Source: Apostichopus japonicus
Taxonomy: Eukaryota; Echinodermata; Holothuroidea; Aspidochirotida; Stichopodidae
NCBI RefSeq assembly: GCF_037975245.1
Contig: NC_092577.1
Coordinates: forward strand, 33,800,898-33,864,897
Direction: 5' to 3'
DNA: 64,000 nucleotides
Shown here: piece after piece, positions 8,737 through 53,940 of the stretch
Position numbering within the stretch: the first letter of the stretch is position 1
Layout of the letters: every line of letters starts with the position of its first letter
Made by a program: the position numbers and the translations under genes
Notes under the pieces: model-generated
Database searches by the model: none
Told to the model about the DNA's origin: nothing
Seen by the model: only the letters and a program-made list of their open reading frames with translations

Positions 8737-8850
8737 AACCTGTCTGTATTCTGTGTGCTTTTTTGTCCCTTTTGTTACTGTTACTCGTCATTTAGCCTTT
8801 GAAGAAGATCCTGCTAGGATCGAAACGTCAGGCCAACTTACTTTTACACA
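8737..8850 (+). repeat. Retroelement-like 3' tail with conserved hairpin, copy 1
   Basis: Matches 56440-56550 nearly base for base. The core is a hairpin GATCC-TGCTA-GGATC preceded by TTTGAAGAA and followed by GAAACGTCAGG. Tails of this form recur in invertebrate retroelements. The family cannot be fixed without the reverse transcriptase, which is absent here. Confidence 0.55.
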
Positions 8851-9672
8851 AGATATATCATTTGTTAAACATTCTTAGAAATAATGTATTTCTGCAGTCT
8901 GCCAATAATATACCTTTGCAATTTGTGAAGAAATATACGATATGTGATCAACCTAACCCAAACATGTGCTTATGATTCAACGACAACGAACCATGCACCT
9001 TATTTATTGGATTGTACTCCTTTCATTCATGAAACAAAAATACTGTGACATTTGACAAACATGTGACCCTGGAGAGACTACGGAAGCCTCCCGAGGCTCC
9101 TCTTCAGCAAGACTACTTTCGTCGCTGGTTTATTTTGGACTATACCATTCAATAGTAGGTAAGCATCAAGATTTTAACATGGTGAAAGATTGGCATATGT
9201 TTAGTAAGTTTTTCAAACGCATTTAAATGATAGTTCGTATTCGCAATTTTACAAGGCCCGTATAAAAATGACTCCATAGTTTCACTTTCGGGAAACTAAA
9301 AAAATATTACTCGATCATGTCCACCCACGACTGCGGTTGTCTGTCTGTTTGGCCTTTTGCCAGCTATGTACGTTTTTGTCTGATACGCCACAACTTATGA
9401 AGGGACTTTTAAATTGTCGCGCTTGTTGAGGCAGTACAGGGAGTTGTAATTTCTACTACTTTTCTGCCAAAATAGCTGTTCTCGTTGGTTGCTGGAGTTA
9501 AAGCTTCAATCTTTGCCCAAATTTGTCACGCATATCTGCAAGCAAGTGTTGAACGTGTTACAAAGCGAAAGTATAGCGAAAATGCGGTAACATCTAACTG
9601 GACAGTTGTGTACATATATAGATACAATAACAAAGCTTCAAGATATAACTACAGATTCCGGCTATAATAACA
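8851..9672 (+). other. Upstream region of the first small membrane-protein gene
   Basis: No coding exon was recognised. TAG followed by GTAAGCATC near 9155 is a good donor sequence and could end a noncoding first exon starting near 9060. This is tentative; the rest shows nothing identifiable. Confidence 0.25.
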
Positions 9673-23444: not shown

Positions 23445-24731
23445 TTATACTGGTTCATTAAGAACTCTATTGACACTCTGGTTATTAGTGTCGGGTCCTT
23501 GTACCATCTGATGTTCTTCACCATCGTGTATGGGTGATTCTTGAGCAGTTTTGCAAACTTTTTCTTTCTTACATTTTATAATAATTATCAATAACACAAC
23601 AACAACAATAGTAATAACAGTAACAATGACAATCCAAACAATATTATCTGAATATGACGAGTTGTCTGTCTTCTCCGTAGACGTATCTTCTTTAGAAGTA
23701 TTGGACTCTTCCGTGACGTCACCAGGATTACTCATAGTTGCATTCGTCGTTGTTTCAGGACACGTGGTATCTTCGGGTTTTAGTGTCCTAGCCAGAACTA
23801 TTTTCATGGTGACGGTATTTACACATGTCCATGTACACGATGTCCTCAATGTCTCGTCTCTCTGTATCCACTCCCTTACATCGTTAAAGGAGCAATCACA
23901 TCTGAATGGGTTACCGTCAAGTAGCAAATTATCAGTTACATTCATAAAATAAGTAATATTTGTGGCATCAGATATCTCATTATTCCTAATATCTAGTGTT
24001 TGAAGTCCCATCAACGGCTCACTACTCAAAGGTCGTGGAATGGACTGTAACCGGTTATTGGCCAAGTTTATGGTTTCAGACGAAAAGGGAAAGAGCCAGG
24101 AGTAGATGTCTAGAATCGAGTTACTGCTTAAATCCAGAATCTTTAAATGATGCAGGGGTTCTAATAATCCGTTTGGAATGCGTGTTAGTTGATTTGAATT
24201 TAGATGAAGGCGAAGAAGAGCAGACAAGTCCATGAACAAATTTGGAGATAAATCCGTCAACCGATTCTGTCCAAGAAACAAAGCTGAAAGTTTAGCCAAG
24301 TTAGAAAACGTACCTTCACTGATTTCAAGTAAATTGTTCCTGTCGAGGTGAATTTGTTCAATGGTGTCTTGAACACTGTAAAATATCGTCTCTGGTAATA
24401 TCGCGATATTATTCTGAGACAAGTCGATACTGACAACCTTTCCTAACCCTGAGAATGATCCAGGCTGAACGTCGGTTATCGCGTTGGCCAATATATCGAG
24501 ATTCTCCACGTGACGATAATGGAGAAAAGAATTGTTCGGTAGAGAGGTTATATCGTTGAATGATAAGTCGAGAACACGAGCGGCTGCACAACCGTCATGA
24601 ATCGGTATCTGATCCAGCTCTGTTTCCCTACAGTCAGCAATTCTATGTTGGCTATCGTAGAAACACTCATTCCTGCAAGTGGGACTAGAGAATGCTTCAG
24701 TCAATACTAACAACAGCCACAGAAATTGCAG
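23445..24731 (-). CDS. LRR transmembrane protein 1 (last exon)
   Basis: Extracellular leucine-rich-repeat receptor type; ligand unknown. In order: a hydrophobic leader, an N-terminal Cys cap (CRNECFYDSQHRIADC), about eight LRRs of the LxxLxLxxNxL type starting at RVLDLSFNDI, a C-terminal cap (NPFRCDCSFNDVREWI ... CTWTC), a Thr/Ser/Asn-rich stalk with N-glycosylation sequons, one transmembrane helix (IVWIVIVTVITIVVVVLLII) and a ~45-residue cytoplasmic tail. No TIR or kinase domain is present. The exon start at 24731 follows an excellent acceptor (TTTTCTTCTATCTTTGCAG). The same position is an acceptor in the paralogue at 29931-32018, so the signal-peptide start is probably in an upstream exon not identified here. 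An unspliced start at an in-frame ATG upstream of 24731 is possible, since reading through also gives a plausible signal peptide. Confidence 0.85.
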   Translation of the reverse strand: MQFLWLLLVLTEAFSSPTCRNECFYDSQHRIADCRETELDQIPIHDGCAAARVLDLSFNDITSLPNNSFLHYRHVENLDILANAITDVQPGSFSGLGKVVSIDLSQNNIAILPETIFYSVQDTIEQIHLDRNNLLEISEGTFSNLAKLSALFLGQNRLTDLSPNLFMDLSALLRLHLNSNQLTRIPNGLLEPLHHLKILDLSSNSILDIYSWLFPFSSETINLANNRLQSIPRPLSSEPLMGLQTLDIRNNEISDATNITYFMNVTDNLLLDGNPFRCDCSFNDVREWIQRDETLRTSCTWTCVNTVTMKIVLARTLKPEDTTCPETTTNATMSNPGDVTEESNTSKEDTSTEKTDNSSYSDNIVWIVIVTVITIVVVVLLIIIIKCKKEKVCKTAQESPIHDGEEHQMVQGPDTNNQSVNRVLNEPV

Positions 24732-24857
24732 CTGCAAAGATAGAAGAAAATGAAGAGAAATTGATGACATTGTTGACATCTCAGTGCAAGCATAAATGTT
24801 AATCCTTTTAATACCGTACTTGTAATGTTGTATTATAAAGTCTATTAACTCCATCAA

Positions 24858-25461
24858 ATCATATTAGTTCAACTACCAATAAACAACAAAGCATCACCAT
24901 TTATCCTTGACAAATTTGCAACACATTAATAACATGTCTTTTGAGGCCATAAAATCTTTAAGCTTTCCCAAATGAGTTTTGTGTTGTATTTAAAGGAGCT
25001 GATCTTACGGTATGCGTATTAGACTTGAAGGTCCAGTCACTTCTTCAGTAACGACTATGAGTAACGACAACTTATAATATAATGTTACAATGCATTTCTT
25101 AATGATTTAATGGATGATCTAGACTTCTCTTTATCTGGTAAAGAATGCCAGCAATGTAGCAGAACGATAACGTTAACAGTTCCTAATAATATTACTTCGA
25201 CATTTTATTGATACATGTAATTTATTACCATTGTCTTCTATAATTGTCATGAAAATTAGAGTTTGTAGCCAAGCCAATTAAAACAGTGCGGTAACATGTT
25301 ATTACACGATCGACAAACAAATGTAGCCATATTTAAAATTAAAATAATATGAGACAACTTCATTCAATTTAAATATTTAAATCAGACAATTTTGTGTGAT
25401 CACGTGGTTGAGCGTGTGCAAAACTGCGGATAACTTTCTTCTGAAGTGTGATCAATTGTTT
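24858..25461. other. Region upstream of LRR gene 1
   Basis: AT-rich DNA that should hold the missing first exon or promoter of LRR gene 1 if the splice model is right. I could not pick out a convincing exon. Confidence 0.3.
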
Positions 25462-34711: not shown

Positions 34712-34741
34712 GTACCGTATGGCAAGCCGTTTTACTTTTTA

Positions 34742-35262
34742 TTCGATATTTGATGATATCATCAAATATTTGGTGATATCAGCAAATAATTGTTGATATC
34801 ATCAAATCATTTGATGATATCATCAAATAATTGCTGATATCAACAATTATTTGATGATATCAGCAAATAATTGTTGATATCAGCAATTCATTTGCTGATA
34901 TCAGCAATTCATTTGTTGATATCATCAATTCATTTGGTGATATCACCAAATAATTGCTGATATCAATAAATAATAGCTGATATCAACAAATATTTGCTGA
35001 TATCAGCAAATGAATTGGTGATATCAGCAATTGAATTGATGATATCAGCAAATCATTTGCTGATATCAACAATTCCGACATATCACTAATTAATTAGTGA
35101 TATGAGGAACCGAATTGCTGATATCATGAAATGATTTGGTGATATCATTAAAAGATTTGCTGATATCAGCAATTGAATTGGCGATATGTTGGAATTGCTG
35201 ATATCAACAATTCATTTGCTGATATCACCAATTCATTTGCTGATATCAGTAATTCAAGCGTA
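34742..35262. repeat. Left TGATATCA palindrome array
   Basis: About 25 units at ~20-bp spacing. Each has the 8-bp palindrome TGATATCA, usually extended to nnTGATATCAnn with AAT/ATT spacers. Variants such as TTGATGATATCATCAA are longer palindromes. Confidence 0.92.
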
Positions 35263-35768
35263 TCGAACCAACGTCTACAAAAAGGAATTAGAAACGAGCG
35301 CAATCAACAGGCATTCTTTTTGGGCTTAAGGGCGCTGTTTGGCTGGTAGCGGGCACAGAAAGGCGCCTGGTGCGAGGTTAATTTCAGCCTTGGTTATAGC
35401 GATCAACGGGAGGGGAAAGGGGACTAAGTTACACAGTACCACTACTGCCACTGGGAGACCTCCGTGGCTACCCATGCACTTGTGACAGGGAGGACAAACA
35501 TTGGGCAAGCACCGAGTAGGCCAGGCCTATAAACCTATGAAAAATAATATCGGGGTGGTTAAGTAGCTCAATATGAAATACCAAAATGTAAAAGTATACC
35601 CTGGTCGGCGGGCGACAGAAGCAGGCTGGGAACTGTGTCCATTGGACTGGCTCCCCGATGGTGGCTGCGATTTGTTTCAAATATTGGGGTGGGGGGACTT
35701 TAACTTGGGTGCAGACGCGTAACAATTCCCCCACCCCAAATTAAAATTGTTCGCGCACTTCGTTATTT

Positions 35769-35770
<2 letters not shown>

Positions 35771-35848
<78 letters not shown>
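35771..35848. repeat. (TA)n microsatellite
   Basis: About 78 bp of TA repeats inside the 34718-37734 element, immediately left of a hAT-like repeat. Confidence 0.95.
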
Positions 35849-35851
<3 letters not shown>

Positions 35852-35864
35852 GTATATATAAATA

Positions 35865-36497
35865 CAGGCGTGTATCCAGGATTTTCTAACCCGGGCGCGC
35901 GATCGAATTACTATCTAAGCGGAGCGCCACAGAAAATTTCTGGTTTTGATAGCCCCCAGATCACAGGAAATGGCACTTCTCGGGCTTGAAAATGATCAAC
36001 AAGTTGTACACTTTGGCCTGAGAATCAAGTTTTTCCAATAGTTTTTTTTTTCATCCATAACCTTTTTCAAGATTGTCACCAGTCACACATCATGTTCGAC
36101 CTCATCGCTTCTCCTGTGGATCATTGCTTTGGAAGGTAATACTATGTAACGGCCTATACAATACCCGTCAGCCCCACTTTTCAAGGTTTGAAGCCCATTA
36201 TTTGTTCAGAATTTGAATTATAAATTCACTTCAAAATATATCCATAAATGTTGCACAAAATTTCATCTATGGTCAACCAATATAGAAAAAAAACCTTCAA
36301 CCCCTAACAAACCGGTCAAAATGGCACGAGTAGAGGAGAGGGAAGTATGATGAAGAATGTTGGTCAGGGAATTTTCGAAAATTCAGACACAGTTAATTTA
36401 TTGTGTACAAATATTATAAATATAAAACTTCGATATCGTTAAAAAAGACAAAAAATATCTTCGCCCCACCCCCCCCCCCTACTTGGCTACGTGCCTG
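35865..36497. repeat. Dispersed hAT-like repeat, copy 2
   Basis: Begins CAGGCGTGTATCCAGG and ends CTTGGCTACGTGCCTG, the complement being CAGGCACGTAGCCAAG: an imperfect inverted pair. Resembles 22995-23255. No flanking duplication seen. Confidence 0.45.
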
Positions 36498-37235
36498 CGG
36501 TTAGAAATCTTGTAGGAAACAGGCCAAATGGAAACCCAGTGAACCCATATCGATGTGGATCATATATATGATTGTACGTACTTACACTCATTCACAAGAG
36601 ATGTACAGACATTATGATAATAATCATGAGTGACAACATGCTATACGGTCACAGGAACGACGACGAAGAGTCATTTACCTCATAGCGCATGTGTTGGATG
36701 AAGTTTAAGCCACCGCCAAATAGGATTTGGATAAATAATCTCATGCATTATTTTCTATTTATAGCCACACAAAAACACTATGCCACCAAATATTGGGGGG
36801 GGGGGGAGATATTAGATACTATATCCCCCACCTAAAATATGTCCCCCCCCCATGATCGCCGCTCATGGCTGCAACATTCCGTTCCGTCTGGCTGTGCCTG
36901 TGCGTCTGCGATGGAAAGGAGCTGATCGTGCACAGCTGCTATTGAATTGAACCTATGCTCATCGATGCTCGCGTTAATCCGTTCTAAATTTCTCTTTGCT
37001 TTGGAGAAGACGTTCTTTCGCTTCAGAAGCATTCTCATTGCCAGTTAAGAGCCTATCTACTGCGCCCCGAGAACTTCTGTCAATAATGCTTCATCAAGTT
37101 TACCGCAATCGCCAAGGTGAAAGTAACGCTACCCGTACCCTGTTGTCTCGTCACTGTCATTTGCATGTACTGCTTAGTACACTGACATTGTGTGCGCATG
37201 CTTGTAAGACGGGCTGCCACGGTTGAATTACTGAT

Positions 37236-37705
37236 ATCATCGTCACGGTTGAATTACTGATATCAGCAAATGATTTGTTGATATCATCAAATGAATTGGT
37301 GATATCAACAAATGAATTGGTGATATCAACAAAAGCATGCATTAGTGATATGTACGGTTCATTTGCTGATATCATTAAATCAATTACTGATATCACCAAT
37401 TGATTTGTTGATATCAGCAAATGAATAAGTGATATGTTGGAATTATTGATATCATCAAATGATTTGCTGATATCACCAATTATTTGATGATAACAGCAAA
37501 TAATTGTTGATATCATCAAATGATTTGCTGATATCACCAAATAATTTGCTGATATCACCAAATAATTGCTGATATCTGCAAATATTTGTTGATATCAGCA
37601 ATTATTTGTTGATATCAGCAATTATTTGATGATATCAACAAATGATTTGATGATATCAACAATTATTTGCTGATATCACCAAATATTTGATGATGTCATC
37701 AAATA
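37236..37705. repeat. Right TGATATCA palindrome array
   Basis: About 22 units of the same type as 34742-35262, running into the right TIR. The outermost ~100 bp mirror the left array almost exactly. Confidence 0.92.
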
Positions 37706-37740
37706 TCGAATAAAAAGTAAAACGGCTTGCCATAGTACCG

Positions 37741-39040: not shown

Positions 39041-39889
39041 TTGCTGTAATTAGTAATAGAATGTAACACCAAACGGTTTCAGTTGTTTTCCGCATACGTT
39101 ACTTTCCGCTGAAAAAAAACTGCGGAAAACACCTTTTTTTCACTTACCTGTACACTATATTTTTCCGCAATTTTAGGATACCAAATTCAGGCAGGATGAT
39201 TAAAATAACATGAGAAAGTATCAAAGAACGTCGATCAAGGATGGTTAGACTGAGTTCATGTCAGAAAAGTTAGACTGCTTATAATTTAGAGGAGGCTTGG
39301 GGTGTTTGTAATTAGGGATTATTAAGAAGTATGAGGCGGTCGGCGGATAAAAGGGCAAAGGGACGCCCGCGTTATGAAGGATTGAGTATCTAATAAAGTA
39401 TTAAAACTGCGGTCCGATGATGGTTTAAAAAAAAAAGTTGTGAAAGGCGGTATCTTTGATTTTCGCTGGAAATGGCTGTATCAGTAAGGCATGTCGAAAA
39501 CTACAACCCAAAAAGGTGGCGCTGTTTAACTAAAATTAAACTTGTGCTTACAGCCTAAGCTAGTGCTTACAGCCTAAGCTACAACCTTAGCTATCCTAAA
39601 TCTAGTCTCGAAGCTACATTTTATCCTGTTACAGTCAAATCCTATCTTCTCCATCTTCCTAAATCCTTCCATATGCCTAATCATTTCAGTAAGTCATTCT
39701 GTTCCTCCCAAAAAAAAACGGTACTTTCCGCTGAAAAAACGTTGTTTTCCGCTGACAAATTTGCATTCAAATCCAAAAAAGTCCTGCACAAAATCCTGCG
39801 GGATTTTATGCAGGAATTATGCCAGGATTTGGCCACATCCTGCAGGATTTATGTAGGATTCCTACAAGAAATTTTGCAGGATTTTAAAG

Positions 39890-40773
39890 GGCTATGCAGG
39901 ATAATTTACAGGAATGTACAGGACTTTTGAAAGACTTATGCAAGATAATATACAGGATTGTACAGGACTTTTGAAAGACTATGCAAGATAATTTACAGGA
40001 TTGCACAGGACTTTTGAAAGACTATGCAAGATAATATACAGGATTGTACAGGACTTTTGAAAGACTATGTAAGATAATTTACAGGATTGTACAGGACTTT
40101 TGAAAGACTATGCAAGATAATATACAGGATTGTACAGGACTTTTGAAAGCCTATGCAAGAAAATTTACAGGATTGTACAGGACTTTTGAAAGACTATGCA
40201 AGATAATTTACAGGATTGTACAGGACTTTTGAAAGACTATGAAAGATAATTTACAGGATTGTACAGGACTTTTAAAAGACTATGCAAGATAATATACAGG
40301 ATTGTACAGGACTTTTGAAAGACTATGCAGGATAATAAACAGGATTGTACAGGACTTTTGAAAGACTATGCAAGAAAATTTACAGGATTGTACAGGACTT
40401 TTGAAAGACTATGCAAGATAATTTACAGGACTGTACAGGACTTTTGAAAGACTATGCGGGATAATTTACAGGATTGTATAGGACTTTTGAAAGACTATGC
40501 AAGAAAATTTACAGGATTGTACAGGACTTTTGAAAGACTATGCAAGATAATTTACAGGATTGTACAGGATTTTTGAAAGACTATGCAAGTTAATATATAG
40601 GATTGGACAGGATTTTTGAAAGACTATGCAAGATAAAAAACATGATTGTACAGGATTTTTTAAATACTATGCAAGATAATATACAGGATTGTACAGGACT
40701 TTTTAAAGATTATGCAAGATAATTGACAGGATTGTACAGGACTATTAAAAAGATTATGCAAGGTAATTTACAG
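39890..40773 (+). repeat. Left 43-bp tandem array, ~20 units
   Basis: Units of about 43 bp containing ACAGGATTGTACAGGACTTT, TGAAAGACTATGCAAGATAA and TTT. Very regular from 39960 to 40560, decaying toward the inner edge. Confidence 0.95.
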
Positions 40774-41162
40774 ATCTGAATACTGTTTATTGGCATTTGT
40801 ACATCCTGATTACTAGAAATTTTAGTTCTTTAAAGAAAAAAAAGGCAAAAGTGGAAAGATGACTTTGCCAAGTAAAAGTCACCATCAGTCTATAATAGTG
40901 TTGGTTAAAGCCACTTTTAAGAAAAAACTGTCCAGAAGATCTCCTTTGAAAAGTTAAGTTGTAAGTGACAGCAACATACTTTCCATATCCTGGATTTAAA
41001 TATATAAAACTAAATACCATTTAATGTCAAACAATAACTGTTAAAAACAAAATAAAAAATTTGGGTTTAAAGTTTAATCCCACTTTGAAAAAAGAACTGT
41101 CTGGAAAAATTCCTCTGAAAAGTTAACTTGTAAGTGAAAGCCACTTTGGATGGATGGTGTCA

Positions 41163-41280
41163 AGCAGGCAACTGGGCTGACTCTGGATGGACTGCGAGGG
41201 GCAACCAGGAGCCGGAAGGATTGGAGGATGAAAGCCATGGTCATCGGGGGTCAGACACGACTGGACGGTACAAGTTCACA
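41163..41280 (+). pseudogene. C-terminal scrap of a non-LTR retrotransposon
   Basis: One plus frame reads ATGLTLDGLRGATRSRKDW followed by a stretch ending GGQTRLDGT. This resembles the last residues of many invertebrate non-LTR reverse-transcriptase polyproteins (T-L-L-A-RDR-W ... RLDGT). Only about 38 codons remain. Confidence 0.4.
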
Positions 41281-41394
41281 AGTTAAGTGACAGCAATATG
41301 CTGTCAGTTTGAATAAAACTAAAGACTGTTTAATGGTAAGCAATAACCATTGAAAACAAATAATATGCTACTAATGTTTAAAGGCCTTCTTTGT

Positions 41395-43256
41395 TTTATG
41401 ATCGATGTCAGCTTCTTGGATATGTATTTGCTGAATCTTGCAGCTCCCTCAGTAAATTGCAGCTTTCTTTCAAACATTCCGTGCTGCAAGAAACAAAGTG
41501 AATGAACACTTAAGAATTGACTTATCATGATTTACAGTAATAGTGTGATCCTAAAACTCTCTTGCATTGCTAGATGAGTGCTTTCATGGAAAGTTAAGTT
41601 CAAACTTTCCTGGGGTTTAGAATGTCTCACAATATTTATCTCTGTTGGTATCCAACCTATATGGACTAGCAATCAGTCCAACCAAGTACATTCTTTTGTC
41701 TCAAATCCAAAGGAAAAACCTTCTCACCTAATTGAAAGATGAACTTTGAAGATGAAGCAACAATTGATTCTTGAATTATGACAATCACAAAGTTCTGAAA
41801 CCCTCCAAGGGCAAAATATACACCATGACTTAAAGCAACTTTCTTTTTTGGAGTTATAGCATTGACAAGCATTTTAGAGTTAGACCTCTACTGACCATGA
41901 ACTTATAACAACATATAGGTAGTATGCTTACCAACAGCAATAAACATAATTGTACAAACTTGAAATTTCAAGTGAGGTTATGTATTCCATTATAATCAGA
42001 AAGTAATGCAATGCCTAGGTAGCTTAAATAACATAATGGTAAAGAACTTCTACCACCCAAAGATGGTTCTATAATTAGCAGAGATTTTAGCAACTTCATA
42101 TATATATTATATACCAACACAAAGAATGTCTTTTCAGTTTTGCATGCATCTGATCTGTTGCCCTTCGCAAAGGGCAAGCTAGCTTTTGTTTCTGAACATT
42201 AGATGGACAATTTTTGTTTTGGTTTAGAATTTGGGTTCGCTCAATCTTTTGGTTGGAAAAACTACACCACTATGGTAGCTACTGGAATGCATAATTCTAC
42301 TGATAAATAGTTCTGTCAGTGTTACAAAATGATTTACTCCTGGAAAACAGCTTATCCAGTAAATTATTTTGTACACTTGTGTACTAAGTCATGAGCTTGT
42401 AATATAAATGTTACTCGTTTGAAAGCTTTTAATAATTACTAACCTTTCATAGCATTAACCTTCATGGGAGACAACAGCGGTTTTGCATCTCTGTCACTGT
42501 TGAATCTTGGAAAAGAGTTCCTCACGACTTTCATTTTAAAGTGTTGGTACCCCAAATTGACACCAGTAAAGTTTCACGAACATATAGTGTTTCTCTTAAC
42601 TACAAATGGCCTCCCACTTGTCTTCAGGAAGCCAAAAATCTGCACCAATATTAACCTGTGAACAGAAAATATGATATACTGTACATGTAAGCAAGCATAG
42701 ATACAGATTTAGCACATGATAACTCACATTATCATAAACATATATTAAAATTTTATAACATATTGGGAGGTAAACATTTAATTCTAGGTCCCTCAAATTA
42801 TAAGCCAGGAATAGCAGCTTATCCAAATAATTATTTTGCACAGTATAACACCAAGTTATTTTTCTAAGCTTAATAATCATGTTTATAATGTAAATACTCA
42901 TCCCAAATCTGTTAAAAATTCGCCTAACTTATGAAGCTTGCACGTAAATGATGTACCAGACTGTTCTTCTTTTAAAACAGGTAATGAAAAGTATCTTTAT
43001 TGTCATTACACAGTAGGGTACAATAGTTAAACTCACTCTTCCATCTTTTTTCTCTATGGCACTTGTTCCTTTGCTTTTGGACTCTCGGATAAACTCTTTG
43101 GTCCTGCAAAGGGTACACATACAGTATATCAACTTAACACAAAATGTCTTTAAGCCATATAACACTTTTCTCCACTTCTGTTGTTGCCTCCACACTGGTG
43201 TAGTACATCACAGGAAACCTCACCCTTGACCTGGATATTTGGCTTTTCAATTCTTC
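41395..43256 (-). CDS. Candidate multi-exon gene inside the 8.9-kb element, unrecognised
   Basis: Not a known family to me. Minus-strand segments with splice-like edges are 43256-43224, 43103-43037 and 42660-about 42601. The first two join in phase to read ...EKPNIQVKGTKEFIRESK...; the third continues VNIGADFWLPEDKWEAIC and then stops. Acceptors TTTCCTTTTTCCAG, TACCCTTTGCAG and TTTCTGTTCACAG and donors GTGAGG and GTGAGT are good. Further coding-like pieces follow downstream (KVVRNSFPRFNSDRDAK near 42530; LVNAITPKKKVALSHGVYFA near 41870; HGMFERKLQFTEGAARFSK near 41487, after the acceptor TTTGTTTCTTGCAG), but phases between them do not all agree. It may be a captured host gene or a decayed element gene. 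Low confidence. Confidence 0.3.
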
Positions 43257-44112
43257 CTGGAAAAAGGAAATGGCAAAGAAGTATTCATCATTTGAAGAAA
43301 ATGAAATAAAGTTGTTACCACAAAAAGGTTGTGAGATTTGCTTCCACAATAGTCTCAAAAAAGCAATTCCAAAGTTTGATGCAGACTGTATAAAGCTGAA
43401 CATTTGAACAAGAGTGTCCTCACCAGAATCAAATGCCCAGACTACAGAGATAATAAAACATAGGCTAAATCTTTGTTTGTTTTTATGATCTAAAAATATA
43501 AAATTTTAGAAACACAAATGCACTGAACCAACTTATTTATACTATAGGCCTAATCGTTTTTAGTTGTTATATTGCTTGCTCACTTAACATTAACAAGCCT
43601 GTTCAGACCTAGGCTAGAGAAGAATCAGTACTTTGTTACTCTAAGTTTGTCTTTCGATCCTTTCATTTAGTCTTACTAATAGTGCTAAAGTATATTATAC
43701 CGATGACTAGCCAACATAATTTGTTCAGCCTACTGTACTAGTACTGTATGTTTGAAGATTTAGCCTTGCTTTATTCAATCACATACTAGGCCTACATAGC
43801 CTACAGGCCCTAGCCTACCCTGTACCCATTTAGATTCACGTGGGAAACTACAGAAAATCTTTACCAAATGAGTGTAGGCTTCAAATAAAGTATTGAGTCT
43901 TAGTCCCAGCATTTGTTTGGAAATACATAGAAGATGATGTGCCACTGTGTTCAATCTAGCCCAAAACACACATAACACAATGTTAACTGATGTTTTTAAT
44001 GCAGTTTGGTGTAAAGAATGCCACAGTAGAAGCCTAAGCTACTCACTGTCATTGCACTTGTGTATTGCAAAACGCCAGCCTAACGACGGTTACACTCACC
44101 ATATTAGTATAG

Positions 44113-44605
44113 TCAGTATTGCGAAGTTCGACATACTGCGAAGTTCGGACCACCCTAAGAAATACACGATTTCACCATGAAAACCTACAGGAAGAGTCAA
44201 ATTTCACCAAAAAGTACGAAGCTACAGTTATTTTCTCTCCAAAATGACCCGTATGCAATAAATTACTTACATATTTGTCGATAAAATGACGAAGATCTAT
44301 GAAGTCTGTTATAATTACTGAAAGAGCAACTGCGCCACCAATTTTATCACCAGCGCCACACTGTGGGTTGCGTGTCCGAACTTCGCAATACTCTAGCAAA
44401 GAAATACCAGTTCCACAATCACGAAGAATCTTCTTGGAAAACAACGTGAAAACAGTTTGCAGGAAAGAAAGTTTGGCCGTGTATCGTACTATAACAAAAT
44501 TCTCCCACCATATGAAGTATATTTTCAAATGATTTATACCAGAAGATTTAGTTTTGGGGTGTTTTAAGTCTTAAGTGTCCGAACTTCGAAGTCACCATCC
44601 TACTA
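44113..44605. repeat. Inverted-repeat element with CGAAGTTCGGAC ends
   Basis: CGAAGTTCGGAC near 44137 is mirrored by GTCCGAACTTCG near 44577. Extra copies of the motif (TTGCGAAGTTCG at 44119; GTCCGAACTTCGCAATAC at 44371) lie inside. It may be a MITE. Edges uncertain. Confidence 0.35.
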
Positions 44606-45240
44606 GTGGCCTGACAATTAACGTTATTTTTACCTCCAAGTTTAAGGAATAACAGGTAGGCGGTTAATAATTCCATTCTTCTGTAGACCTTCTTGGGTGA
44701 GTAACAGTTGAAAGTTGCTTAGAAATTTCCACAAAAATTATTTTGTAAATCAATTTATTTGTATCAGAGTGATCGTGTAAAACTATGCCAGGCAATGCTT
44801 ACGCTGTGCAGAAGTTAAACAGCTGCCTACGCGTTGCTTCGCGGTTTCGAATTGAATATGGTGTTGGAGTCAAAGGTCAACTTAAACCTCGTACACAATG
44901 TGATTATAAAAAATGGAGAAAATTGTCTTAGACCTCCCAATTTGAGAGTTTCGTGTTACTGAAAATTATGAATATAATTAATTTATATCAAAAATTTAAA
45001 ATAACGATAAATTGGGAAAAGTTGAATCACAATATAAATTGTACATTAATTATTTTAATCTTGATCTTGACTTGGCAATATGCGTTTTACTTTCAGTGAC
45101 TATGAATCACTGATCTAAATATAGATGCGAGCTCATCTCAATCACATCAAAATAATGCAGGTGTATGCTGCGTATTAAATTATAAACTGGAAGAACTTCT
45201 CTCTCATAAATTATGAACTATCCTTTAATTTGTCATGCAT
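44606..45240. other. Inner sequence of the 8.9-kb element, no gene seen
   Basis: AT-rich DNA between the CGAAGTTCGGAC repeat and the right array. Nothing coding recognised. Confidence 0.4.
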
Positions 45241-47190
45241 AACCTTAAAAGTCCTGTACAATCCTGTATTTAACTATCTTGCATAATCTTTTAAAATCCT
45301 GTATAATTTCTTGCATAGTCTTTCAAAAATCCAGTTCCATCCTGTATATTATCTTGCATAGTCTTCAAAAATCCTGTATATTTTCTTGCATAATTTTTTT
45401 AAAATCCTTTATGATCCTGTAATTATCTTGCATAGTCTTTCAAAAGTCGTGTACATTCCTGTATATTATCTTGCATAGTCTTTCAAAAGTCCTGTACAAT
45501 CCTGTATATTATCTTGCATAGTCTTTCAAAAGTCCTGTACAATCCTGTATATTATCTTGCATAATCTTTTAAAATCCTGTACAATCCTGTAATATCTTAT
45601 GAAAATATATATTAAAAGTCCAGTGCAATCCTGTAAATAGTCTTTCAAAACTGCTGTTAAATCTTGTAATTTGTAAAATTAAAAGTCTTTTACAATCCTG
45701 TAAATTGTCTTGCATTGTCTTTTAAAAGTTCTGTATATTATCTTGCATAACATTTTAGTAATCATGTACAATCCTGTAAATTATCTTGTAGTCTTTTAAA
45801 AGTCATGTAAAATCCTGTAAATTATCTTGCATAAACTTTAAAAACAATTCTGCACAATCCTGTTAATATCCATGTATATTTACTCCAGAATCCTGTAAAA
45901 TCCTGTAAAATTTCTTGCATAGTCTTTGAAAAATCCGGTTCCATCCTGTATATTATCTTGCATAGTCTTTCAAAAATCCTGTAAATTTTCTTGCATAAAT
46001 TTTTTAAAATCCTTTATGATCCTGTAATTATCTTGCATAGTCTTTCAAAAGTCCTGTACATTCCTGTATATTATCTTGCATAGTCTTTCAAAAGTCCTAT
46101 ACAATCCTGTATATTATCTTGCATAGTCTTTCAAAAATTCTGTACAATCCTATATATTATCTTGCATAGTCTTTTAAAAGTCCTGTACAATCCTGTAAAT
46201 TATCTTGCATAATCTTTCAAAATCCTGTAAATTTTCTTGCATAGTCTTTCAAAAGTCCTGTACAATCCTGTATATTATCTTGCATAGTCTTTCAAAAGTC
46301 CTGTACAATCCTGTAAATTATCTTACATAGTCTTTCAAAAGTCCTGTACAATCCTGTAATTATCTTGCATAATCTTTTAAAATCCTGTATAATTTCTTGC
46401 ATAGTCTTTCAAAAATCCGGTACAATCCTGTAAATTTTCTTGCATAATCTTTTAAAAGTCCTTTACGATCCTGTAATTATCTTGCATAGTCTTTTAAAAG
46501 TCCTGTACAATCCTGTAAATTATCTTGCATAGTCTTTCAAAAGTCCTGTACAATCCTGGAAATTTTCTTGCATAGTCTTTCAAAGTCCTGTACAATCCTG
46601 TATATTATCTTGCATAGTCTTTCAAAAGTCCTGTACATTATCTTGCATAGTCTTTTAAAAGTCCTGTACAATCCTGTAAATTATCTTGCATAATCTTTTA
46701 AAATCCTGTATAATTTCTTGCACTGTCTTTGAAAAGTCCGGTTCCATCCTGTATATTATCTTGCATAGTCTTTCAAAAGTCCTGTACAATCCTGTAAATT
46801 TCTTGCATAATCTTTTAAAAGTCCTGTACAATCCTGTAATTTCTTATGAAAATATATTAAAAGTCCAATGCAATCCTGTAAATAGTCTTTCAAAACTGCT
46901 GTTAAATCTTGTAATTTGTAAAATTAAAAGTCTTTTACAATCCTGTAAATTGTCTTGCATTGTCTTTTAAAAGTTCTGTATATTATCTTGCATAACATTT
47001 TAGTCATCATGTACAATCCTGTAAATTATCTTGTAGTCTTTTAAAAGTCATGTACAATCCTGTAAATTATCTTGCATAAACTTTAAAAACAATTCTGCAC
47101 AATCCTGTTAATATCCATGTATATTTACTCCAGAATCCTGTAAAATCCTGTAAAATATCTTGCAGAGTCTTTTAAAAATCATGAGTACAA
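45241..47190 (-). repeat. Right 43-bp tandem array, opposite orientation, ~45 units
   Basis: The complement of the left-array unit: TCTTGCATAGTCTTTCAAAA, GTCCTGTACAATCCTGTA and AATTA. More degenerate than the left array. A block of about 315 bp at 45595-45913 recurs at 46846-47158. Confidence 0.95.
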
Positions 47191-47325
47191 TGTAAATACA
47201 TTCTCGCATATTTCTAGTAAACAACGTAATGGAGTGCCTCTATTAATTAATAGAGGGAGAGAAAATAATAGAGAGATAAATTTCTCCAAATATTTAAAAA
47301 CTCATACATGTACAACGCGAATGAA

Positions 47326-47760
47326 GGATTCTTGCATGCATACAGTATGAAGGATTCCTGCATGTAAGGAGTCCTGTGTGCATATGTGAAGGATTTTTGT
47401 ATGCAACCCTAATTATTTTGTATAAAGGATTCCTACATGTGTATGAAGGATTTCTGCATGTGTATAGACTGAGTGAAGGATTCTTGTAGGTTAATGAAGG
47501 ATTCCTGCATGTTTACGAAGGATTCTTGTATGTGTATTAAGGAATCCTGCATGCATATGAAGGACTCGTGTACGTAAATAAAGGAATCCTGCATGCTTAG
47601 GAAGGATTCCTGTACAAGCATCATGGAATCCTGCATGCATATGAAGGATTCTTGTACATAAATGAAAGAATCCTGCATGTGTATGAAGGATTCCAGACTG
47701 TGGCTGAAGGATTCCTGCTTGCATTTGAAGGATTCATGTTTGTTAATGAAGAGTTTTTAT
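47326..47760 (+). repeat. Degenerate AAGGATTCCTGCATG array
   Basis: Roughly 30-bp units of GAAGGATTCCTGCATG with variable linkers (TGTGTAT, CATAT, TTAAT). Both arrays share the word GGATT/AATCC-CTG, so this may be a diverged relative of the 43-bp unit. Confidence 0.8.
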
Positions 47761-47990
47761 AGTGAATTCAAGAATCATGTATTTTTGTAAAAGAATCCTG
47801 CACTACATTGAAAAAATCAAGTTTCTAACACTAAGTGGTTTATAGTTCAATCTCCATTTGGAAGGAATCCTGTTCCATATGCAGATTCCTGCAGGACTTT
47901 TTTGTATGGGCAGCTGCATGTTTGCGGAAAACACCGTTTTGTTTCAGCGGAAAGTAACATGTGCGGAAAATAACGGTACCCACACCAAAC

Positions 47991-48662: not shown

Positions 48663-49456
48663 GTGAGTAGAAGAGAAATCATAAACGTCATTTGGAAGTA
48701 AAGTTGTTTAGAAAATCTTTGAAATGAGACTAATGTGGGTAGGCTTCAGTATCGCCAAATTCACGTAGGCCTAGGCTAGGACGTGGCGTACACAACGTTG
48801 TTTCGATTTTGGCCAAACTATTGTTAAAACTCATTCGTACGTAGAACATATTATGCTGCAAATTACAATACAATAAGAATGGAAAAGAGAACGATGTAAC
48901 ACTAACGGTAAATTTAGTGATTCAGTAAAAACCATTGTTGTACGGTGTTGGCTACAGTACTGGCTAGGCCTATTGTGGTTAATTCACTTAGGCTAGCAGT
49001 TGCAGGTGCACAGTGACGAAGATAATTAGGGTCAAGAGAATATGAGTCCCATTCTTACTTGCATATGTGGTCGTCTGTTTGGAGTGAAAGAGGAAGGGGG
49101 TGGGGGGTTGGAGTAGTTGCACATGAACCACTTTTCAGGTTTCTTTTGAACAGATTGGACTGTCTTTCAATCTTTCTTTAAAAGGGGTTCACCCTATGGA
49201 CTTACTTTTTGATAGCCTTCCCATAGTTCCATTTATGTCAGTTGAGATACGTTACTCCGTAATTGATACTGAAGCAGTTATCTATAGAATATTATGGAGA
49301 ATCCTTCAGGAATTTCCATTAGCTGTGCCATTTTACATTTGTTAAAAATTTAAAATGCAGTCATAATTATTGCAAAAATATCACACGTTTCATGGATCGT
49401 ACAGTCTTTCTTCTATTAAATACTTCTCCTTTTGTCTTTTTCAGATTTCATCTATT

Positions 49457-51055
49457 ATGGTGAGGATATGTGTAATTTTTGGCTGTGGGAACAGTACCAA
49501 ACATATAGACAAATGGTTAGCTCAGCTGTGCGAAGTACATGGTCTAATGTTCGGAAGCTGTGTATGCAAACCACCGTTTAGCCTCTTTCCGTTTCCATCA
49601 GAAAAGAAGCATCCATATAGACGTCAAGCATGGGTCAAGTTGGTTAACAGAAAGGGAACTGATGGCAAGAATTGCAAACCACAAACGTATTCTAGGATTT
49701 GTTCCAAACATTTTAGGGATGGAGAACCTACAGAACTCAATCCAGATCCCACAGAATTACTTGGATACGATTTGATTTCTACATCCTCAAAGGGTAAACT
49801 TCCAAGGAAACCACCATTAAAGCGTTGTTCCCCATCCACCAGTGAAAAGCTGGAAAAGGCAAAGAAGCAAAAAGCAGACTGTCCTGAAGCTAAAGTGCCA
49901 ATTCCTGCTTCATTTCATACGAAAATTGAGACAGAAGATTATCAACCAGAGTACACTCCAGCAGTAGACCATTCGTATGGTTTTCTTGGAAATGACTGTA
50001 CTTCTTGCAAAAGTAAGAATGACCGAATTTCAAAGTTAAAAGAACGACTAAACCATTTAAGGACAAAAAGTAAAGCTCGCAGCAAATGCTCGTCAAGGAG
50101 TTACTTCTCTATCTGTAACATTGTACTGAAATCTGACTCAAGCGTGAACTCATACACAGGAATTCAAAGCAGGGACAAGTTCATTGCTTTTCATAACTTT
50201 TTACTTCCAAAAGTTGCAAAAATGAGGTACTGGTATGGATGCAAGAAGTCTTCTCCAAGGAACACACCAAGGGGTAAAAGGACCCCAATGAAACGAGGAC
50301 CTGCAAGAAATCTCACTGCTAAGGAAGAACTCATAATGGTACTAATGAAGTTAAAAATGTCGTTGACGATGGCATTCCTTGCAAGTTTATTCTTTGTTTC
50401 AGGTGGTACAGCCTCGAACATATTTACTACATGGATTAAATTCCTTGCATTTGAACTGAAACCATTCATTTTATGGCCTGACAAGGTGCAAGTTCTGACA
50501 AGCATGCCACCGTCTTTGAAAAAGAAGTACCCAAATCTTCGATGCACATTGGACTGCTCTGAAATATTTATAGAACGTCCCAGGAACTTGGAACTGCAAG
50601 CATTAATATGGAGTGACTATAAGCATCACAATACGGTAAAATATATGGTAGCAATAGCCCCCAATGGAATGATATCCTTCTTATCAAAAGCATGGGGTGG
50701 AAGAACATCAGATGTGCACATCACTAAGGAGTCTGGATTCTTGAATCTTATTGATCCTCATGATTTAATCCTTGCAGACAGGGCTTTCACAATTAAAGAA
50801 GAACTTCTCCTCAAACAAGCTACCCTCGAAATCCCACCCCCAAGCAAAGGAAAAGAACAGCAGGCACCAGAAGAAGTTGGACGCACCAAAAAGATTGCTA
50901 ATGCGCGGATTCACGTCGAGCGGGCCATTGGCCGCATGAAATGGTTCCGTATTCCGAAGGACACTTTACCAATTACTCTTATACCTCTTGTTGATGACAT
51001 TAATACTGTTTGCGCTGCTTTGGTGAATCTACGTTCTCGTTTGGTTTCATTGTAA
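49457..51055 (+). CDS. THAP-DDE transposase (ISL2EU-type), 532 aa
   Basis: Catalyses cut-and-paste transposition in the nucleus; the THAP finger binds element DNA. The start is the ATG 13 bases after an acceptor ending at 49444. The frame is also open upstream, but that part is intron. THAP zinc finger at residues ~1-90: C5, C10, W59, FPFP at 44-47, C82 and H85. A basic Lys/Pro linker, then a short coiled-coil-like stretch (ISKLKERLNHLRTKSK), then a helix-turn-helix (LTAKEELIMVLMKLKMSLTM...SGGTASNIFTTWI). The DDE_Tnp_4 nuclease fold holds the likely catalytic triad D366 (TLDCSEIF), D441 (LILADRAF) and E488 (ARIHVERAIGRMK). No internal stop or frameshift is visible, so the protein may be functional. 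It converges on the SWIM-YqaJ nuclease at 51789-53940; this pairing characterises ISL2EU elements. A domesticated gene is possible but less likely with the partner alongside. Confidence 0.92.
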   Translation: MVRICVIFGCGNSTKHIDKWLAQLCEVHGLMFGSCVCKPPFSLFPFPSEKKHPYRRQAWVKLVNRKGTDGKNCKPQTYSRICSKHFRDGEPTELNPDPTELLGYDLISTSSKGKLPRKPPLKRCSPSTSEKLEKAKKQKADCPEAKVPIPASFHTKIETEDYQPEYTPAVDHSYGFLGNDCTSCKSKNDRISKLKERLNHLRTKSKARSKCSSRSYFSICNIVLKSDSSVNSYTGIQSRDKFIAFHNFLLPKVAKMRYWYGCKKSSPRNTPRGKRTPMKRGPARNLTAKEELIMVLMKLKMSLTMAFLASLFFVSGGTASNIFTTWIKFLAFELKPFILWPDKVQVLTSMPPSLKKKYPNLRCTLDCSEIFIERPRNLELQALIWSDYKHHNTVKYMVAIAPNGMISFLSKAWGGRTSDVHITKESGFLNLIDPHDLILADRAFTIKEELLLKQATLEIPPPSKGKEQQAPEEVGRTKKIANARIHVERAIGRMKWFRIPKDTLPITLIPLVDDINTVCAALVNLRSRLVSL

Positions 51056-51788
51056 GCCATATTTTCTCAGCCAGGCTCCATAGACTTTCTAGCCTCAATT
51101 TTTTCCAGGGTTGAAAATGTTATGTTAAAGTTCAAGAAAGTTAAATGTCTCTTTGTTATGAGTTTCACCTTCAATATTCATGTCATTTCTTGTTTATTAA
51201 ATACTGCAGCACATAACCATTTGTTACAATTGATTTTTGAACAACTTACTTTTAAATGAAAACTTAGGGCCCAATACAATATAAAAGAGGAAACTTCAAT
51301 GGCTACTTTCATTCAGTTTCTGGAAAAGTGTACCAACACCAGTCTCTCACCCCCCCCCCCCCATTTTTCAGATTCTGTTCCCAGTGCCCCCATTCCTCCT
51401 GGAATATTTAATAAATGTTGCAGATGAGCTGTCAATTGCCACATGAAAACAAAAAGCATATAATAATAATTCTACAGTACTAACAGTGTGAAAGAAAGTA
51501 AAGAAGTGAGCATTGAAATATATCGAAACGTTGTATACTCTGTAATTAAAATTTGTATATCTATCAAATCTTTACCTAAAAGATTCACTGCAAGGGCTGG
51601 AAAATATGTATCGCAATACGGAGAAAATTGTCACTTATTAATACCCCCCCACCCAAAAAAAAAAAAAAGCAAAAGAAATTAAACTGTAATATCAACTTGA
51701 AAGCAGTACTTATATTTGCTCACAACATGAAATAACTAAAGGAATGTCTCACAATTGAAAGAAAACTAAAAACTACTGTGTGAAAATC
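51056..51788. other. Convergent 3' ends of transposase and nuclease genes
   Basis: Holds the 3'UTRs of both genes. AATAAA at 51409-51414 could serve the transposase transcript. A C-run lies at 51350-51362 and a poly-A at 51655-51668. No gene. Confidence 0.5.
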
Positions 51789-53940
51789 TCATGCATTTTT
51801 AGACTTAAAAATATCTTTAGATAAAAGTTCAATTGCCAGGAAGTTTCTGAAGAAGAAATCACTGAGTCTCTTCATTTCTAACCAATACTCCTGATCAAAA
51901 AATGTTCTAACTTTTAAAAATCCATGTCTTGAATATAAAAACAAGTCACACCATTTGGTCCCAGAAACTGCCATTTCTAAAGTTACTTGGGAGTAGTACG
52001 CATGTGATTTCTTTAAAGTTGGTTTTTCTTCTACTTCACATATATAATCCAAATTGTTACAAGTTGGTGTTGTGTGGGAGACTGAGAGGGGGCACTTAAT
52101 CTCCAACACTCCTTTTCCACAGCACTCGCAAGAAATTATGCAATCTGGACTTGCTGCCAGGAACACATGGTCTGCACACACCAGTAAACCACTTTCTTCT
52201 ACCCTTAATTTATGGCCCTCAGCTTTCATGGTGGATATGTACTTATCCCGAGCTTCGCTCTCCATTTCCCTCCCATACTTCAAGGCAGGGATGTTTGGAT
52301 TTACATCGCTGTAGAGAATTCTCTTTAGTAAACATGTGTTATCCACATCCTCACCCTTCTCAAGCCTACGAGCTCTAGTTAAGACAGAGTGGACAATGGA
52401 TCCTGTGATACGACCTTTCCTTTCTTCGAACCAATAAGAGTTGTTGGACTGGCCTCTTGTTTTCTTCTCTATAAGTGTTACTGTCGAGGATGAATATACT
52501 GGGATGGTGAGAAGGAATTCCTGTATGCTTCTTGATAGGTCTGCTAGAGCAACAAGTGAAGTAGGTATAGATGTTTCCACTTCAACCGTTTGTCCTAAGT
52601 TGATATCAGCAGAGGGTTCCACTGTTGTTGTTATGGGCATCTGTTCACCTGTTGAACAATATGCAAAGACACAGGCATCTGGAAAAGCATGTTGGAGTGT
52701 CTTCAACCCCTCTAGGCTTGGAAGACTTTTTCTTTGAGGAATTGGAGTACTGGCTTGAGGTAAAAATAGTTGCCTGAATGCTGGGTTGATTCCCTCTGAT
52801 GATGGTTTTGCTAAGGAAGGTAGAAAGGGGATAAATGAAAGCTGTTATTAATTCTATCCAGTAAATATCATGTTTTTCATATCTGGAGAGTATGCAGTAT
52901 TCTTTTATCAGTTACAGGTAGCATCAACTTGAAGATACAATTAAGTTTAATTACTATTATTGTCTTCAAACAACTAAGTTACTGTCTAACTGTTAGAATA
53001 CTGACCAGCCTGTTTGGAAAATTTGGGTCATTTCACATATTCTCTTCGGCTGAACACTGTGTTTAATCCCAAAAGATTTCCATCCGCATTCACGTGACGT
53101 GCAGGCTGGATTGGTTAATCCATTTTGCCAAGCGAAATCCACCTTAAACAATACTGCAGCAATATGATTACAGGTACTGCTGTATCTGTTGACAATAAAA
53201 GAATATAATGGGTGAAAAGAATTTCAACAACATTTTTTCCTGTATTTGCTGCTTAAAGGGTGAAAATCAAGCAAAAAAGTTTATGATGTGGGAAAAATGA
53301 TACAGCCTTATCTTTACTTCAAAGACATTGGAACAGACTTCTACAGTATCTGTGATTCTTGGTTATTTGCCTAAATTGCAAATACCATATATTATATAGT
53401 GAAGTAAAATATTAGTTTGGTTTACTGAAGGTTAAGCTGTCCTCACTTTTTTTAAGTACAAGGATAAATGGTTTAACTTACCCTGCAAAACAAGTACAGA
53501 AAGCTGCATATATTTCCCCAGACGTTTTTCCAAGGCACACCCACACATTCCATGGAATGTTATTAACATTTTGCGAAGGCCTGCACTTGGCCCATAGTAG
53601 GCACAGGTTACTTGAATCACTCAACGCGTGGTAGAACACTTCTTTCAACCAGCCAGACGCAAAGTAACTATAACCTTTCCATCTTTGTAGTCACTCATGA
53701 GACGCTTTTTTAAGCTAACGTCATCAATGTTTTCCAAGTACAGTATCTCCCAATGTCGAAAGCCATTGTTGGGGGCCATTTCGTTATCCCACTTTTCTCA
53801 TTTTCCCACCCATCTGTAAGTTGAAGAGGATCAGGTATTGCTTCTTCACCGATTTTCAACAAATTCTGGTACTGTATTTCCTTCTCTTCATCGATAGTTT
53901 CTTGGGGCCTAGGCTTACGCACTAACTCAGGCATTTTCAT
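51789..53940 (-). pseudogene. SWIM zinc-finger / YqaJ-type nuclease of the ISL2EU element, apparently frameshifted
   Basis: The second ISL2EU protein, a lambda-exonuclease-fold (YqaJ) protein. The ATG at 53940 gives MKMPELVRKPRPQE; exon 1 runs to 53482. Its donor GTAAGTT and the acceptor before 53176 join CTCFAG to TCNHIAAVLF, rebuilding a textbook SWIM finger (CxC...CxH). That exon ends near 53006. The last exon (52810-51789) has the nuclease core: GRITGS, GREMESEARDKY, ASPDCII, VLEIKCP and a YYSQVTLEM motif, so the catalytic Glu/Asp/Glu/Lys residues are present. Two single-base-type frame changes break exon 1: near 53740 (FDIGRY to YLENIDDVSLKK) and near 53675 (SDYKDGK to YSYFASGWLKE). The phase of the 53006-52810 junction is unresolved, so a small exon may be missing. 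Either the gene is decaying or the assembly has indels. Confidence 0.85.

Follow-up and report, generated by a model that had tools for sequence, protein, structure and literature searches.

Animal CACTA elements are described as having tips that begin with CCC, 2-bp target repeats and a Transposase_21 gene (PMC1636069). The subterminal repeats of plant CACTA elements are taken as sites for TnpA-type proteins, and in soybean Tgmt they are asymmetric between the two ends (PMC2613891); Mutator-like elements make target duplications of 8-11 bp, and among them Rehavkus and some Phantom elements carry minisatellite sequence (PMC6446971). Against this background we analysed a stretch of 64,000 nt from contig NC_092577.1 of Apostichopus japonicus (hereafter the window), searching for relatives of its elements throughout the 671.6-Mb genome (35 contigs). 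An earlier sequence-only reading had described positions 39075-47981 of the window as a single 8.9-kb transposon, perhaps Mutator-like, with arrays of a 43-bp repeat inside its ends. The unit is instead a nest of two transposons: a ~750-bp element, probably of Mutator type, later interrupted by a ~8.1-kb member of the animal CACTA/EnSpm (TRC) group, a reading to which we assign a probability of about 0.93.

Two transposons, one inside the other

The 8907 bp from 39075 to 47981 are directly bordered by perfect copies of ACACCAAAC, at 39066-39074 and 47982-47990 (the chance of a 9-bp match at one given place is ~7e-6), and end in inverted repeats of which 39 of 46 bases are identical without gaps; inside these, the left 43-bp array runs forward and the right one inverted. 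In all these respects the sequence-only reading was accurate. Where it fails is in assigning them to one element, for the duplication of 9 bp comes from one element and the arrays from another; the parts of the two lie as follows.

39066..39074, + strand: left target duplication, 9 bp, ACACCAAAC, of the outer element
39075..39763, + strand: outer MITE-like (miniature inverted-repeat transposable element) element, left part, 689 bp (alignment with L024; left-end search)
39764..39774, no strand: filler CATTCAAATCC, replacing the terminal CCCATAC of the nested element (absent elsewhere)
39775..47910, + strand: nested non-autonomous element of CACTA/EnSpm (TRC) type, its left 7 bases missing
47904..47910, - strand: intact right terminus of the nested element, GTATGGG (reverse complement of CCCATAC)
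47911..47920, no strand: filler CAGCTGCATG between nested and outer elements; its last two bases, TG, could be outer (39/39 right ends)
47921..47981, + strand: outer MITE-like element, right part (alignment with L024; right-end search)
47982..47990, + strand: right target duplication, 9 bp, ACACCAAAC, of the outer element

The division rests on comparison with short copies at other loci. One of them, L024 (769 bp), matches positions 1-689 of the window element at 92.8% and then positions 8845-8907, with no gap of its own, the alignment resuming unbroken at window 47919-47981. All 18 outer copies for which both ends were found continue across the point of interruption with two substitutions or fewer and without extra bases, and a 43-bp unit occurs in none of them; the window copy is thus a short outer element split by ~8.15 kb. 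The suggestion that arrays or foldback ends lie within 9-bp-duplicated termini is contradicted by the same 18 copies, and copies that do carry arrays end otherwise. On the right side we scored the best 40 of 194 candidate outer ends, 39 of them other than the window's. All 39 stop at window 47919, and 33 pair at 687-2878 bp with one of the 103 left ends compared (100 of the 119 tip-pattern matches being covered); no other copy of ~8.9 kb was found among the 39, six of which had no partner among these left ends. The filler CATTCAAATCC is absent from the 18 two-ended outer copies and from the 15 other nested-family left ends read. The break point is located at the 4-base loop, or no more than 2 bases away from it, of a hairpin with 38 base pairs (z -8.3) that is predicted for a composite sequence of outer-family copies.

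The outer element

The first 226 bp of the outer element served as the query for its left end, and all of the best 40 of 343 candidates, which were scored, align from base 1 (two short secondary matches also appeared). Among 20 stretches picked from these matches for reading of duplications, 16 are flanked, immediately outside the ends GGTTTCAG...GGTACCC, by a perfect 9-bp duplication; the duplications all differ, apart from those of L020 and L023, which have common flanks. The same termini thus recur joined to other 9-bp duplications, as the earlier reading had proposed should be looked for. In one further copy (L016) 8 of the 9 bases match, another (L028) has an 8-bp duplication, and two have none (L010, whose right end was not found by the pattern used, and L015, at whose right end the duplication had no match). 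The 18 two-ended copies measure 680-779 bp, except L022, which at 2274 bp holds another insert. A 20-base left-tip pattern has 119 exact matches in the genome; the reversed pattern, used as control, has none. The outer element is a short, high-copy, non-autonomous, MITE-like family. It is likely to belong to the Mutator superfamily, judging by duplication length: 16 of 20 copies at 9 bp and one at 8 bp fall in the 8-11 bp range that marks Mutator-like elements (MULEs).

L020 (on C16) and L023 (on C9) were also seen to differ in length, at 685 and 698 bp, while sharing flanks and 9-bp duplication on different contigs.

The nested family

The ends of the nested element define a family of their own: every scored candidate matches, on the left the best 40 of 50 and on the right all 31. 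Its other copies end in CCCATACAAAAAAGTCC at both ends. CCCATAC forms the tip at 15 of the 16 left ends read, the exception being the window's, and at 9 of 10 right ends, the exception being a short copy, C14s, with CCCACAC; six of the left ends were read without their partner. The CCC tip that marks TRC elements is accordingly found at both ends of the copies read, save at the damaged left end in the window. Target duplications of 2 bp, read by eye, flank all eight long or medium pairs, seven of them independent (TA, TA, AA, CG, AT, CA in both C8 and C10, GA), and C14s has the 2-bp duplication AT. The C8 and C10 copies (L038 and L039) lie on different contigs with nearly identical flanks, which indicates a duplicated segment rather than two insertions. 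An exact 2-bp duplication flanks 11 of the 21 short members that were read (chance 0.072 per copy); in L059, L061, L064, L066, L067 and L075 the tips differ or were not found. None of the nested-family ends read elsewhere (15 left, 9 right) is bordered by outer-element ends.

Between its arrays the window copy holds a core shared with other long copies.

40790..45220, + strand: non-coding core common to long copies on C11 and C16 (two copies), by masked blastn
44113..44601, no strand: ~490-bp repeat inserted in the nested core, seen as a gap against C11, C16a and C16b in alignments

The main blocks of the core are 90-98% identical to the C11, C16a and C16b copies, which places all four in one long non-coding lineage; no Pfam match above cut-off was obtained in 10 of 15 core open reading frames (ORFs) of at least 60 amino acids scanned. 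The ~490-bp repeat has partial matches at other loci, and at L028 the outer element sits in such sequence.

By the CCC tips, 2-bp duplications and Transposase_21 of its family, the nested element is of the animal CACTA/EnSpm (TRC) type. The earlier assignment to Mutator therefore suits the 9-bp duplication of the outer element and not the array element. A reading of the insert as a Spy-like element that makes no duplication, prompted by the junction in the window, was dropped since other copies show CCCATAC tips and 2-bp duplications.

Subterminal arrays

Three arrays lie within the ends of the nested element.

39877..40773, + strand: left subterminal array, 43-bp unit, 20-22 units (Tandem Repeats Finder, TRF, 20.8 copies)
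45260..47089, - strand: right subterminal array, 43-bp unit, inverted, with an internal ~730-bp duplication (several TRF rows)
47419..47751, - strand: right subterminal array with a 21/42-bp period, absent from the sequence-only reading

Counted as whole units with up to 11 substitutions, the 43-bp repeat occurs 20 times on the left and 25 on the right; counted by a 19-base core with up to 4 edits, 22 and 39 times, a criterion that yields 5 matches in total in 20 shuffled versions of the 4.4-kb core. The ~20 left units reported previously are in agreement with this, and the ~45 on the right are somewhat too many. The internal duplication of the right array (within 45219-47919; ~730 bp, 89.6% identity) points to segmental growth. 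In the eight copies with both sides present, units are forward on the left and reversed on the right, numbering 2-25 forward (including one stray core match in four copies) and 5-61 reversed by the 19-base core; in the C17 copy some reversed units lie internally, and the C3 stretch has 33, on the right side only. In a set of 232 units (165 distinct) that had been selected for similarity to the consensus, TATGCAAGA and TACAGGATT are among the well-conserved stretches. When the CAGGA motifs were examined for helical phasing, the best period proved to be a simple consequence of the 43-bp unit.

Family members of 200-232 bp have no 43-bp unit and 9-16 CAGGA/TCCTG motifs. Since array-free short members have 2-bp duplications, insertion can proceed without long arrays, although these may assist it. 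We infer that short CAGGA-rich subterminal stretches expanded into the 43-bp and 21-bp arrays.

Coding copies and a candidate BEN gene

Array-ended copies with a transposase gene do exist, as the earlier reading had suggested looking for. A 12.6-kb copy on C17, with both tips and a GA duplication, gives a Transposase_21 match of 26.1 bits (E 5.7e-6; Pfam cut-off 28.6 bits). Its protein finds one near-identical copy (97%), on C3, with a right end of the family type and a frame that, with one stop read through, scores 29.9 bits, above cut-off. Relatives at 34-44% identity include 13 above cut-off, 12 of them outscoring C3; the two closest (46-47%) stand just below it at 27.7 bits.

In the coding copies a second gene, antisense, separates the left array from the transposase gene. 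A piece of 58 residues from its N-terminal part has three genome matches, on C17, C3 and C16, all antisense and each in a copy with a family end, the left end of the C16 copy being 10.3 kb away; the C16 copy matches the gene region of C17 at 77-98% over a stretch of 7 kb. The last exon in C17 gives a weak match to the BEN domain (Pfam E 5e-4, below cut-off), and its sole PDB match is BEND6 (E 0.12). This exon also has three genome matches, of which those on C17 and at C16:30483301 lie inside left ends, the latter 0.9 kb inside that of the C16 copy and with two stops; the third and weaker, at C16:30552655, lies outside the C16 copy. We speculate that coding members combine a Transposase_21 gene with an antisense BEN gene whose protein would bind the 43-bp arrays, an animal stand-in for TnpA drawn from an unrelated domain, and regard the proposal as doubtful. 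Literature searches, judged by titles and abstract openings, brought up no mention of a BEN gene within a CACTA element or of comparable arrays in animals, which is no proof of absence.

Two further observations concern this region. The C16 copy has retrotransposon-like ORFs, recognised by eye, on the last-exon side of the antisense gene. A general link between BEN and Transposase_21 genes was rejected: none of the 27 Pfam BEN matches in the genome is near a Transposase_21 match, the nearest being ~27 kb away (by eye), and the C17 exon is not among the 27.

Origin of the nest and alternative explanations

The history we favour begins with insertion of a non-autonomous element of ~750 bp, probably of Mutator type, duplicating 9 bp; later a non-autonomous TRC member of ~8.1 kb came to lie at the predicted hairpin tip near the outer right end. 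Transposase_21 made by the rare coding copies would cut after recognising the CCCATACAAAAAAGTCC tips and integrate the element with duplication of 2 bp, and would move non-coding copies as well by way of the tips they share. The CAGGA-rich subterminal repeats may, by analogy with En/Spm and its TnpA, be where an accessory DNA-binding protein attaches, ~100 bp of CAGGA-rich sequence per end presumably sufficing for insertion. Loss of seven left-tip bases and fillers at both junctions point to damage after insertion or to capture during repair of a break in the hairpin.

Several observations weigh against this account. The window's nested copy shows neither a left tip nor a 2-bp duplication, and so the insertion, as now seen, is not a clean transposition. 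Ten of the 21 short members lack a clean 2-bp duplication: L060 has a 3-base match, five have none (including L058, with a spurious end) and four have no recognisable end. The C17 Transposase_21 match is just below cut-off, in a frame broken into several ORFs; on C3 the longer of the ORF pieces reaches 23.7 bits by itself, likewise below, and the 13.5 kb read there contain other sequence on the left side without extending to the left end. Coding copies and window core have no coding region in common, so that mobilisation of the window type by Transposase_21 is deduced from shared ends. For the outer element no autonomous partner was found: of the 38 MULE transposase matches in the genome none lies within 30 kb inside the 103 left ends compared, and one lies 5.9 kb outside such an end.

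Could the whole nevertheless be one Mutator-like element of 8.9 kb with array ends, the short copies being its internal-deletion derivatives? The 9-bp duplication and the shared outer ends would suit this, and Mutator and foldback elements with repetitive ends have been published (PMC3169594). It is made very improbable by the array part being found at many other loci with ends and 2-bp duplications of its own, there being no outer ends beside any of the array-element ends read at those loci (15 left, 9 right); by the failure to find a second long copy with outer ends among those paired; and by the Transposase_21 carried by coding copies of the array family. Within the nested-pair reading the array element might have entered not by transposition but as filler DNA taken up where the hairpin tip of the outer element had broken. 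To this the absence of seven left bases and of duplicated target bases, the 10-11 filler bases at each junction and the position of the site, no more than 2 bases from the loop of what is predicted to be a strong hairpin, all lend weight; the right tip, however, is intact to the base, as cutting by transposase would leave it, and damage after insertion, through failed excision and repair, would produce the same picture, making capture the less probable route but one with a substantial chance of being correct. The superfamily of the outer element is a separate matter. Merlin elements make target duplications of 8-9 bp, the outer tips begin with GG and L028 has an 8-bp duplication; yet 16 of 20 copies have 9 bp, a length given for several MULE groups (PMC6446971), and MULE transposases occur in the genome, so that a Merlin-like or other superfamily with 8-9 bp duplications seems unlikely.

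Recognition of the nest averts a false family, since the 9-bp duplication around the arrays would have led to a catalogue entry for a new Mutator element with array ends. The nested family provides an animal CACTA system whose limits are well defined and whose subterminal arrays are very long, and because coding, long non-coding and ~220-bp array-free copies coexist in it, the role of subterminal repeats becomes testable by comparison. If the partner gene does encode a BEN domain, it would be a testable candidate for an array-binding protein.

Neighbouring features in the window

Other elements and genes in the window are the following.

23448..24863, - strand: leucine-rich-repeat ORF, 472 amino acids
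29934..32063, - strand: leucine-rich-repeat ORF, 710 amino acids
33579..39017: second nest, directly to the left, with TTTACC/GGTAAA arrays at both ends of ~5.4 kb (ends by eye)
34717..37735: inside the second nest, terminal inverted repeat TGGCAAGCCGTTTTACTTTTTATTCG and inward arrays of a palindromic 21-bp unit, TGATATCA (ends by eye)
49367..51052, + strand: transposase ORF with THAP, HTH_Tnp_4 and DDE_Tnp_4
51792..52844, - strand: YqaJ-type exonuclease ORF, beside the preceding

Both leucine-rich-repeat ORFs are probably host genes. The pair formed by transposase and YqaJ-type exonuclease (49367-52844) is reminiscent of ISL2EU elements; no clear terminal inverted repeat pair was recognised around these two ORFs. 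The 2-bp duplications and this nearby THAP/DDE_Tnp_4 gene had prompted an ISL2EU reading of the array family, which was dropped when the family's own copies gave Transposase_21.

Comparison with known systems

The outer element agrees in its 9-bp duplication with Mutator-like elements, Rehavkus and Phantom included (PMC6446971). It differs in being short and non-coding, the arrays belonging to the nested element instead. Foldback-type elements, Tetris (PMC4079207), Tm1 (PMC3169594) and Galileo (PMC3573991), have repetitive inverted ends and so resemble the array element superficially; Galileo, however, is placed in the P-element superfamily (PMC3573991) and Tm1 with Mutator (PMC3169594), whereas the nested family has Transposase_21 and 2-bp duplications.

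Plant CACTA elements such as maize En/Spm and soybean Tgmt share with the nested family subterminal repeats and non-autonomous derivatives, but their tips are CACTA and Tgmt makes a 3-bp duplication, against CCCATAC and 2 bp here, and Tgmt is described with 4 + 24 repeats in 159 + 732 bp, against arrays of more than 1.8 kb in the nested family (PMC2613891). The closest likeness is to the animal TRC elements, SmTRC1 of Schistosoma mansoni and those of Tribolium and Aedes, in CCC tips, 2-bp duplications and Transposase_21; SmTRC1 likewise has a tandem-repeat region (PMC1636069). Features that may set the nested family apart from those TRC elements are long inverted arrays at both ends, with up to 61 unit-core matches on one side, a second gene in antisense whose BEN match is weak, and long non-coding members that share a 4.4-kb core. 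It thus bears the known marks of TRC elements, and its long arrays and second gene make it a variant of that group, not a new class.

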